Source: Thiomicrospira sp. WB1
GTDB lineage: Bacteria; Pseudomonadota; Gammaproteobacteria; Thiomicrospirales; Thiomicrospiraceae
Length of the DNA: 64,000 nucleotides
Assembly: GCF_001507535.1 (NCBI RefSeq)
Contig: NZ_LQBN01000001.1
Location: 806,001-870,000 of the forward strand
Direction: 5' to 3'
Part shown: positions 28,066 to 57,028 of the stretch, piece by piece
How the letters are laid out: each line of letters begins with the position of its first letter
Position numbering within the stretch: the stretch's first letter is position 1
The notes under the pieces: generated by a model
The model's input: the letters and a program-made list of their open reading frames with translations, nothing else
Told to the model about the DNA's origin: nothing
The model's database searches: none
Position numbers and translations under genes: made by a program

Positions 28066-28081
28066 AGCCTGGAATGTGCCA
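28066..28081 (-). promoter_or_regulatory. Sigma-54 (-24/-12) promoter for glnK-amtB
   Basis: Minus strand TGGCAC-N5-AGGCT: the -24 TGGCAC is perfect and the -12 has the invariant GC at the right distance. Predicted start near 28055, about 37 bases before the glnK ATG. This promoter type is standard for glnK-amtB. Confidence 0.7.
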
Positions 28082-28146
28082 GATTTATAAAACAACGAAA
28101 AAACAACCATTTAACCTTAATTTTGGGTCAGTAGTTTGCGGCATAT

Positions 28147-28182
28147 GTTTTATTTTGGTGACAAAGTTTTAGTTTTGGTGCA
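28147..28182 (-). promoter_or_regulatory. Paired NtrC-like half-sites upstream of glnK
   Basis: Minus strand TGCACCA and GTCACCA half-sites repeat about two helical turns apart (near 28176-28182 and 28157-28163), centred about 100 and 119 bp upstream of the predicted start. The opposite halves are poor. The first overlaps the start of the divergent methyltransferase gene. Confidence 0.45.
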
Positions 28183-28982
28183 TGGCTGACTCCGCGGTGT
28201 CCCGACAATGGCTGCCCTGGCGCCGTCTGCTGCATGCGCTGATTGCCCAGCTGCTTGCCCTTTTGCTGTTGGCCGGAGGCGTCTGGTTCGCGCCCGCCTT
28301 GATTGACCCGCCTTATGAATGGTCGGTGTTGATTTGGATTCAGGGTGCTCTGGCCTGGGGCGTGACCCGTCTTTTCGGTTTGCCCAGGTGGTGGGGCCCC
28401 ATTCAGCTGCTTTTGCCAGTGGGGCTTTATTTTGGTGCAAATTGGTCATTGAGCCCATGGTGGGCACTGGGCGCCTTTGCCTTGATTTATCTGTTTTTTG
28501 CCAACGCCCTGACCGAGCGAGTGCCGCTATATTTAACCAATTCCCTGACGCGCCGGGCACTGGTCGATTTGGTGCGTCCGATCCCGTCGGTGCGTTTTAT
28601 GGATTTGGGCTGTGGGTTTGGCGCGAATGTGGTGGCCATGAGCCGCGAGCACAATGTGATCGAGTCGCAGGGCGTGGAAACGGCCCCGATTCCGTTTGCG
28701 GTGTCATGGGCGCGCAGCCGCATTCAGGGCGGGCAGGTATTTGCCCGCAATCTGTGGCACCTGGATTTGAGCCGCTACAATGTGGTCTATGCGTTCCTGT
28801 CTCCCGAGCCTATGCCCGGCTTGTGGCTTAAGGTGGTGCAGGAGATGCCCGAGCAGAGTGTGTTTGTGTCCAACAGTTTTGCGGTGCCGGATGTGGCGCC
28901 GGATGAAGTGCTGACCTTAAGTGACCGACGCCAGACCCAGTTGTTTGTGTATTACCCCGACCGACATCGGTCGGATGAATGA
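28182..28982 (+). CDS. Membrane-anchored SAM-dependent methyltransferase
   Basis: A 266-residue protein with three to four N-terminal membrane helices (~15-105) and a C-terminal class I methyltransferase domain. The SAM-binding motif I is FMDLGCGFGANV (~138-149), followed by an acidic residue in QGVETAPIPF. The target is unknown; a lipid, quinone or membrane-protein substrate would fit the anchor. It is divergent from glnK and its ATG overlaps an NtrC-like half-site, so the two promoters may interact. No clear ribosome site precedes the ATG. glnE follows 46-52 bp downstream, across an iterated palindrome. Confidence 0.78.
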   Translation: MADSAVSRQWLPWRRLLHALIAQLLALLLLAGGVWFAPALIDPPYEWSVLIWIQGALAWGVTRLFGLPRWWGPIQLLLPVGLYFGANWSLSPWWALGAFALIYLFFANALTERVPLYLTNSLTRRALVDLVRPIPSVRFMDLGCGFGANVVAMSREHNVIESQGVETAPIPFAVSWARSRIQGGQVFARNLWHLDLSRYNVVYAFLSPEPMPGLWLKVVQEMPEQSVFVSNSFAVPDVAPDEVLTLSDRRQTQLFVYYPDRHRSDE

Positions 28983-28990
28983 GGTTTTTC

Positions 28991-29002
28991 ACCAGGCCTG
29001 GT
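28991..29002. repeat. Iterated palindrome, copy 7 (exact, extended)
   Basis: Exact core, and the symmetry extends to a perfect 22-bp palindrome from 28986 to 29007 (TTTTC on the left, GAAAA on the right). This is the best copy in the window. It lies between the methyltransferase and glnE genes. Confidence 0.93.
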
Positions 29003-29034
29003 GAAAACCGCTTAAAACGTAAGGAAGAGTGTCC

Positions 29035-56087: not shown

Positions 56088-56124
56088 AAAAATAAAAAAG
56101 CCGACCCAAGGAGCCTGGGTCGGC
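56088..56124 (-). terminator. Terminator of the TorF-porin gene
   Basis: On the minus strand a 9-bp stem GCCGACCCA/TGGGTCGGC is followed by TTTTTTATTTTT, 42 bases after the TorF stop. Confidence 0.88.
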
Positions 56125-56165
56125 AATCACAACTAACGATTTGAGGAAACGACTGTTTTAGAGGG

Positions 56166-56852
56166 TTACAATCCGAAAGACTTTGAATACATTACCGAAA
56201 CAACCGGGTCGCCCTCGTTTTGATCGATTTCATCATCAAAGATTTGATCTACTGCAAAAGTAAAGTCTTCCATTGAGAGGCTGATTTGACCATGTGTAAA
56301 CGAGTCTGCACCATCTTCTGCATAAGACTGATTGCCAACAAGAATGCTCATACTTGCGTTTTCAGAAATATCGAATCCGTAAGACCCGTATGCGTAGACA
56401 TCACCAGTTTCGCTGTCGTCCCAGTCTTCTGAAGCTGAAACGGCACCGCCTAATGTGAATCCTGACATGCCGATGCTGCCATATACTTCTGAGAAGTTGG
56501 CGTTGTCGTCAAGTGGGTAGGCGTAATAAACGTATCCCAGGTCATATTCGACTCCACTTGTTTCACCGCTAAAACCAAGGTAGCCATCCAGCTCATAAGT
56601 TGAAGTACCGCCGAAGGTGACCGTGGATGACCAAGTTCCCAGGTAAAAGCCTGAATCATTTGCGTAATCAATTCCGCCTTGGATGGCTGCTTGGTTGTCA
56701 GACTGTGTAAGACCACGCCACATGTAGTTCGATGTTGCGCTGATGTTACCGGTCACTTCGGCTTGCGCTGTCGCAGGGGCAACAGAAAATGCTGCAGAGG
56801 AGGCAACAGCCATAGAAACCAATAGTGATTTTAAAGGAAAGGTCTTTTTCAT
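56166..56852 (-). CDS. TorF family putative outer-membrane porin
   Basis: A 228-residue beta-barrel protein of the TorF (Gcw_chp) family. It has a signal peptide (~1-31, ending ATAQA), then alternating aromatic/hydrophobic strands (GNISATSNYMWRGLTQSDNQ at the start is the family hallmark, and GFYLGTWSS), and a terminal strand VVSVMYSKSFGL. Unlike classical porins the last residue is Leu, not Phe. TorF-type genes often lie beside nitrogen transport genes such as amtB. Here it is monocistronic, with a probable -24/-12 promoter and two NtrC-like sites, so it may admit the small nitrogen compounds handled next door. Confidence 0.85.
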   Translation of the reverse strand: MKKTFPLKSLLVSMAVASSAAFSVAPATAQAEVTGNISATSNYMWRGLTQSDNQAAIQGGIDYANDSGFYLGTWSSTVTFGGTSTYELDGYLGFSGETSGVEYDLGYVYYAYPLDDNANFSEVYGSIGMSGFTLGGAVSASEDWDDSETGDVYAYGSYGFDISENASMSILVGNQSYAEDGADSFTHGQISLSMEDFTFAVDQIFDDEIDQNEGDPVVSVMYSKSFGL

Positions 56853-56898
56853 TTTACGCTCCGTGTCGTTATGGTTTGAATCAAGTTCGTCGGGTACA

Positions 56899-56915
56899 TA
56901 GAATGATGCGTGCCA
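56899..56915 (-). promoter_or_regulatory. Probable sigma-54 promoter for the TorF porin
   Basis: Minus strand TGGCACG-N4-ATTCT: a perfect -24 element but a weak -12 (TC instead of GC). Predicted start near 56889. Confidence 0.5.
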
Positions 56916-56989
56916 AAAAAACTAAATGTATTAAGAAACAGCAGGTTACAGTTTTTTTGGTTTTTTTATTTCATTTTTTTTAAACCGTA

Positions 56990-57028
56990 TGCACCAAATT
57001 GGATTGATTTGTGCACCAAAAAAATTAG
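56990..57028. promoter_or_regulatory. Two NtrC-like sites upstream of the TorF gene
   Basis: TGCACCAAATTGGATTG (56990-57006) keeps TGCACCA and TTGG of the consensus. A second TGCACCA (57012-57018) follows 22 bp later. Centres are about 109 and 131 bp upstream of the predicted start. Confidence 0.55.

Follow-up and report, generated by a model that had tools for sequence, protein, structure and literature searches.

NtrC control of glnK-amtB and glnA is already known, and the NtrC sites at Escherichia coli glnA are phased. The nickel ligands of the regulator NikR are two histidines and a cysteine of its regulatory domain, and its operators are palindromes spanning 28 bp. In Herbaspirillum seropedicae, the nlmA-glnK-amtB genes are NtrC-dependent, according to the accessible part of PMC3023670. 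Operons for guanidine carboxylase are described under guanidine-I riboswitches in the available sections of PMC12186494, PMC11410670 and PMC12508155. Here, we analyzed a 64,000-nucleotide stretch of Thiomicrospira sp. WB1 (contig NZ_LQBN01000001.1, positions 806,001 to 870,000; hereafter the window). Four of its units carry a sigma-54 -24/-12 element with NtrC-type half-sites upstream: glnK-amtB, an ABC permease/guanidine operon, a periplasmic binding-protein operon and the gene for a TorF-family putative porin. We consider it likely that all four belong to an NtrC/sigma-54 regulon and that a NikR-like protein would add a second lock to the two guanidine units, with guanidine as its most probable effector.

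Promoter layout of the four units

The sigma-54 element of glnK-amtB (TGGCACATTCCAGGCT; 28066..28081, minus strand) is conserved in orthologues and lies downstream of a direct repeat of NtrC half-sites (28156..28182, minus strand) made up of TGCACCA at 28176-28182 and a degenerate GTCACCA at 28156-28162; the half-site centers are at -93 and -73, counted from the T of the -24 element. In the permease operon an NtrC-like dyad (TGCACATCTAAAGTGCA; 41439..41455, plus strand) centered at -80 from the -24 T precedes the sigma-54 element TGGCATGTCTGTTGCT (41527..41542, plus strand). The binding-protein operon has the element TGGCTTTTATATTGCT (55899..55914, minus strand) and an NtrC site with one strong half, TGGTGCA, centered at -81 (55987..56003, minus strand). 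For torF, the element TGGCACGCATCATTCT (56900..56915, minus strand), whose -12 part is without its G, is accompanied by two exact half-sites (56990-56996 and 57012-57018, together 56990..57018, minus strand; centers -83 and -105). At most promoters, the NtrC dyad has only one strong half.

With the +1 placed 24 bases past the GG of the -24 element, the site centers recompute to about -106 (permease), -107 (binding protein), -99/-119 (glnK) and -109/-131 (torF), within 1 bp of the values in a first-pass annotation of this DNA, which had also placed the four elements and the TGCAC-type sites correctly to within one base. That annotation argued from an equal geometry at independent promoters; equal helical register is what we find, and the distances themselves are not equal.

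From a search of 55 genomes for relatives of GlnK, TorF, the permease and the binding protein, 78 upstream regions were scored (binding protein, 15 of 18 loci; permease, 14 of 15; GlnK, 25 of 30; TorF, 24 of 24), with the -24 taken as the best-scoring position within a set range, so that some may be misplaced. Sixteen promoters were dropped before counting, 8 as near-duplicates and 8 for a sigma-54 score of 4 or less; the window's own glnK was among the latter and was measured separately. The 62 non-redundant promoters that remain contain 62 exact TGCACCA half-sites upstream of the -24 (dinucleotide shuffles: mean 1.4, maximum 5) and 128 when one mismatch is allowed (mean 23.5, maximum 36), half-sites having been tallied to -170 and shuffles to -150, with 1 exact and 7 one-mismatch sites beyond -150. 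Orthologous promoters of all four units retain the -24/-12 element and phased half-sites. The implied dyad centers group near -72, -83, -94, -105 and -115 relative to the -24 T. At a period of 10.5 bp the vector length is 0.72 (random promoter shifts of up to 5 bp: mean 0.14, maximum 0.40, 5,000 trials), and it is still 0.57 when each family-position pair is counted once (35 positions). The four families agree in phase to better than 2 bp, with exact sites few for the binding protein (6) and the permease (5), and same-orientation pairs of half-sites peak at a spacing of 20-21 bp. This register fits an activator bound on one face of the DNA that contacts the polymerase by looping. Thus, it is conservation among orthologues, and not the scores of single sites, that confirms the shared layout. 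In distant relatives the register is weaker (vector length 0.33, 44 sites); the 80 bp upstream of 45 distant elements hold 12 exact half-sites, against 0.3 in shuffles and 1 in a coding control, and 46 with one mismatch, against 7.6 and 19.

Profile searches show that the genome encodes one rpoN and that NtrB adjoins the NtrC gene; there are six strong matches to the NtrC model, only one of them over the cut-off. The promoter layout recurs at glnA (C3:250084), found by a combined-layout search, and at a second PII/amt pair (C1:316515), found by a sigma-54 scan, both with half-sites at steps of about 21 bp. Two combined patterns matched 7 and 10 places genome-wide (reversed controls, 4 and 2), and four of these 17 are glnK, glnA, the binding-protein unit and torF. 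Four of the other 13 were inspected (L106, L107, L118 and L121). At L118 (C1:966244-966339) a gene without a Pfam match at cut-off is preceded by a sigma-54-like element with a single TGGTGCA half-site at -83; this gene is a possible further member of the regulon. A direct-repeat pattern gave 7 places (control, 3), two of which are torF and glnA; the five others were rejected, the nearby sigma-54 score never rising above 9.2.

The nitrogen-scavenging regulon proposed in the first-pass annotation is therefore supported by the conserved promoters, by RpoN, NtrB and NtrC, by the same layout at glnA and the second PII/amt pair, and by gene adjacency. It was incomplete, not mistaken, having missed a second operator-type element and a NikR-like gene at the two guanidine units.

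A 28-bp inverted repeat, a NikR-like gene and the guanidine-I riboswitch

The second element is an inverted repeat, TTATTAC-N14-GTAATAC, which we predict to be an operator. It occupies 41542..41569 (plus strand, about -11 to +17) in the permease operon and 55865..55892 (minus strand, about -4 to +24) in the binding-protein operon. Across the window's family it reads TTATTAC-N14-GTAATA(A/C), with minor variation and a spacer of always 14 bp, and it lies at the -12 element or start site of 15/15 binding-protein and 14/14 permease promoters (near-duplicates and the window included). At this spacing it was found in none of 25 glnK and none of 24 torF regions; four of these regions have three-mismatch matches at other spacings. 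A degenerate form of the pattern has only two matches in the 2.28-Mb genome, both at the guanidine units. Relative to the predicted starts, this position would suit a repressor.

The predicted binder of the repeat is encoded within the permease operon (43495..43980, plus strand). This protein has the ribbon-helix-helix plus NikR_C architecture and scores under the curated NikR cut-offs. The aligned positions of the nickel ligands His, His and Cys read Gln, Gln and Thr in the window protein and throughout its family, and the Cys occurs in none of 51 NikR-like sequences (the window's counted twice). Judged by its architecture, the protein is a NikR relative that lacks the ligands of a nickel sensor, and a nickel-sensor reading of the gene is disfavored because the ligands are lost. 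Among distant NikR-like relatives, three of the five scanned exceed the curated NikR cut-offs.

To compare upstream arrangements we used 48 of 80 named loci, hand-picked mainly for intact flanks. Of the 48, 45 have a sigma-54 element scoring at least 12 ahead of the binding-protein gene, against 2.8% of 1,920 random 420-bp stretches. Where a guanidine-I riboswitch is directly upstream (14/14 loci), the -24 precedes the riboswitch and is separated from the start codon by 219-341 bp, compared with 51-126 bp in the remaining 31 loci. In total, 34 guanidine-I riboswitches were found in 26 of 63 genomes. The loci of 30 were inspected (L202-L231), and 24 of these riboswitches have a strong sigma-54 element 25-121 bp upstream; at L218 the element is only 25 bp upstream, and transcription would begin inside the riboswitch. 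Six have no such element, L220, L229, L230 and L231 being inside gene rows and L221 and L227 not obviously so. All riboswitch genomes were reached via the binding protein, so this link is not a census. The riboswitch model RF00442 has no match in the window at the gathering score, nor at E values up to 5 over 41000-57200, and none under stricter filters in 15 genomes of the window's family, its own included.

The NikR-like gene and a riboswitch upstream of the binding protein are mutually exclusive in these loci. Where no such riboswitch is present the gene is found in 30 of 34 loci, and the 14 that have the riboswitch never contain it (Fisher p = 6e-9); of the four exceptions, two (L122 and L123) belong to Thiomicrorhabdus and have their permease row beyond the DNA examined. 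Counted in 73 of the 80 named loci, the repeat occurs within one mismatch in 35 of 37 NikR-like loci and in none of 14 riboswitch loci (p = 9e-11), as well as in 2 of 11 loci with neither device, in 8 of 11 loci cut short and in 12 of 2,190 random 220-bp stretches of the same loci; shared ancestry inflates all of these counts and makes the p-values look stronger than they are. In five loci (L140, L147, L153, L161 and L163) the two devices coexist: the importer carries the repeat, and a riboswitch precedes the UAAP genes in another part of the cluster. This suggests that the repeat system and the riboswitch respond to the same signal.

Gene content and genomic neighborhoods

Downstream of its promoter, the permease operon (plus strand) encodes an ABC transporter permease (41584..42564) and ATPase (42584..43495), both assigned by profile match, and, after the NikR-like gene, two subunits of carboxyguanidine deiminase type, UAAP1 (43859..44716; 339.2 bits, cut-off 206), which starts at GTG 43859 or, more likely, further in, and UAAP2 (44601..45347; 352.3 bits, cut-off 284.7). 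These are followed by a carboxylase (45659..49288) annotated as urea carboxylase and by allophanate hydrolase (49285..51108; 752.7 bits, cut-off 511). Counted along the alignment, Asp701 of the carboxylase is opposite Asn1330 of the K. lactis enzyme, and Asp958 is opposite Asp1584. In the accessible text of PMC11410670, Asp at these two K. lactis positions identifies a guanidine carboxylase, so the window's "urea carboxylase" is best read as guanidine carboxylase; urea as its main substrate is rejected on the signature residue. Asp701 is found in 52/52 aligned relatives and Asp958 in all 49 whose best stretch covers it (3 do not).

The permease operon has no binding-protein gene of its own, a slot filled by the product of 54865..55851 (minus strand), for which TIGR03427 is the best model, under its cut-off. 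Behind that gene, on the same strand, are genes for a fatty-acid-desaturase-family membrane protein (53792..54823), a metallo-beta-lactamase-fold hydrolase (52994..53782), a xylose-isomerase-like TIM-barrel protein (52115..52969), whose fold is clear and gives no substrate, and an EamA-type transporter (51190..52152). These four genes (51190-54823) accompany the guanidine genes in the window's family. The desaturase cluster follows the binding protein in L122, L123 and L189, as in the window, and follows the hydrolase on the same strand in L126, L130 and L131; genes for a desaturase and a TIM-barrel protein are likewise found close to the binding protein in L134, L135, L140 and L162. By analogy with the dioxygenase-lyase pair in the available text of PMC12508155, the cluster might free guanidine from substituted guanidines.

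The remaining units are on the minus strand. AmtB (26391..27635) is an ammonium transporter of the marine subtype (TIGR03644, 673.8 bits, cut-off 514), GlnK (27680..28018, ATG start at 28018) scores slightly under the equivalog cut-offs of the PII models, and TorF (56166..56852) matches TIGR02001 (135.9 bits, cut-off 47). In three of five distant loci inspected torF adjoins a PII gene. In 4 of the 80 named loci (L171, L174, L178 and L188), the binding-protein and permease genes come directly after torF-glnK-amtB in the same orientation, and the three longer rows continue with the ATPase, the NikR-like gene, UAAP1, UAAP2 and the carboxylase; these four are loci of Thiobacillus/Hydrogenophilales type. 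Many other loci have the binding-protein gene at the front of a permease-ATPase-deiminase-carboxylase row; in the window's family it is separate.

Proposed control, its alternatives and known systems

From the sites and their conservation, the gene content and the mutual exclusion, we infer the following mode of control. Under nitrogen shortage, phosphorylated NtrC would bind the TGCACCA half-sites on one helix face, 70-125 bp upstream of the -24, and would activate sigma-54 polymerase at all four units, at glnA and at the second PII/amt pair. The ammonium uptake genes and the porin would answer to nitrogen only. At both guanidine units, the NikR-like protein would bind the 28-bp palindrome over the start site and keep the importer and catabolic genes off until guanidine or a derivative frees it, so that nitrogen shortage and substrate would both be needed. 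The second gate of many relatives would instead be a guanidine-I riboswitch located in the sigma-54 leader. Because of the mutual exclusion with the riboswitch and the gene linkage, we further propose, as an evenly balanced judgment, that the NikR-like protein is a guanidine-sensing repressor, a protein counterpart of the guanidine-I riboswitch in which a nickel-sensor fold may have been re-used for guanidinium atop the NtrC/sigma-54 gate.

Several observations weigh against this scheme. Scans of the window at up to 3 mismatches gave 7 matches to the NtrC 17-mer against 8.5 expected and 90 to the sigma-54 consensus against 135 expected, in neither case an excess. Single sites therefore prove little, and the case rests on conservation. 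The -12 of torF, ATTCT, is without the usual G. Among distant promoters a half-site is present in 30 of 45, against 6.8 in shuffles and 15 in coding windows of these loci, a smaller excess than among the closer orthologues. At three loci (L020, L021 and L122) the binding-protein gene has the repeat in front of it and lacks a convincing sigma-54 element. When reversed as a control, the repeat pattern still matches one place in the genome, once on each strand, two loci (L194 and L197) have the NikR-like gene without the repeat, and both nickel-site histidines are kept in 16 of the 51 NikR-like sequences. Within the genus, several species likewise have a -12 without its G (TTTCT-like) ahead of torF, as does this genome ahead of its second PII gene (L006, C1:316515); this appears to be a recurrent atypical form of the sigma-54 element.

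That the sites are chance resemblances, as window-wide scans without excess might suggest, is extremely improbable given their conservation and register across orthologues, which refute this for the set, although the TorF -12 could still be one. We also think it improbable that the sigma-54 promoters are real and served by an activator other than NtrC: five further proteins of the genome match the NtrC model strongly, only one of the six matches being over the cut-off, yet TGCACCA is the NtrC consensus, and the same sites precede glnA and the PII genes. The repeat might instead be bound by some other regulator, with the NikR-like gene a passenger, as the gene without repeat at L194 and L197 and a repeat within one mismatch at L164, where no NikR-like gene was detected, would allow; the presence of the repeat in nearly all NikR-like loci and in no riboswitch locus, together with a 28-bp span like that of NikR operators, makes this unlikely. 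A more serious alternative, possible if still the less probable, keeps NtrC/sigma-54 control and gives the repeat and the NikR-like protein a signal other than guanidine, such as nickel, urea, allophanate or an alkyl-guanidine. It draws on the 16 sequences with both histidines, on two of three distant relatives with the His pair or an Asn pair that exceed NikR model cut-offs, and on the genes in the binding-protein operon whose substrate is not evident. Against it stand the absence of the Cys ligand in 51/51 sequences, the Gln-Gln-Thr of the window's family and the alternation of the NikR-like gene with a guanidine-specific riboswitch.

The locus points to a specific candidate protein that would sense guanidine, together with its predicted operator, and to a case in which an RNA regulator and a protein regulator apparently swap at one locus. 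The comparison also suggests that, in the bacteria sampled, guanidine riboswitches usually lie behind a nitrogen-controlled sigma-54 promoter, so that guanidine use would be gated by nitrogen need and by substrate. Standard annotation would name some of the NikR-like regulators nickel sensors and the carboxylase a urea enzyme. The open-access literature, which leaves most subscription papers outside, gave no paper whose title links guanidine with NtrC, sigma54 or RpoN, or guanidine carboxylase with nitrogen limitation, and no open-access title among the matches listed pairs NikR with guanidine metabolism. The accessible portion of one review (PMC12186494) does not mention NtrC, sigma or NikR, and names guanidine-binding regulatory proteins as something that future research may reveal.

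Compared with known systems, the regulon resembles the NtrC/sigma-54 nitrogen regulon in having half-sites upstream of the -24/-12 at glnA, glnK-amtB and the second PII/amt pair. It differs in its mostly single strong half-sites, often direct repeats 20-21 bp apart, and in including a guanidine importer, a catabolic operon and a stand-alone torF. The NikR-like protein, compared by sequence with NikR (2bj1 and 1q5v), shares the ribbon-helix-helix and NikR_C architecture and, for its predicted operator, the palindromic span of 28 bp. Unlike NikR, it belongs to a set in which the Cys ligand is never present, the His pair is replaced in the window's family, the operator half-site is another one and the gene is linked to guanidine genes. 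In H. seropedicae a membrane-protein gene likewise accompanies glnK-amtB under NtrC (PMC3023670, accessible part), as in the torF-glnK-amtB rows of relatives; in the window, however, torF stands apart from glnK. The riboswitch-controlled guanidine carboxylase operons have the same enzymes and an ABC importer, as far as the available text of PMC12186494, PMC11410670 and PMC12508155 goes, whereas in the window and the 15 genomes of its family, where no riboswitch was found, a NikR-like gene and a palindrome are present instead.

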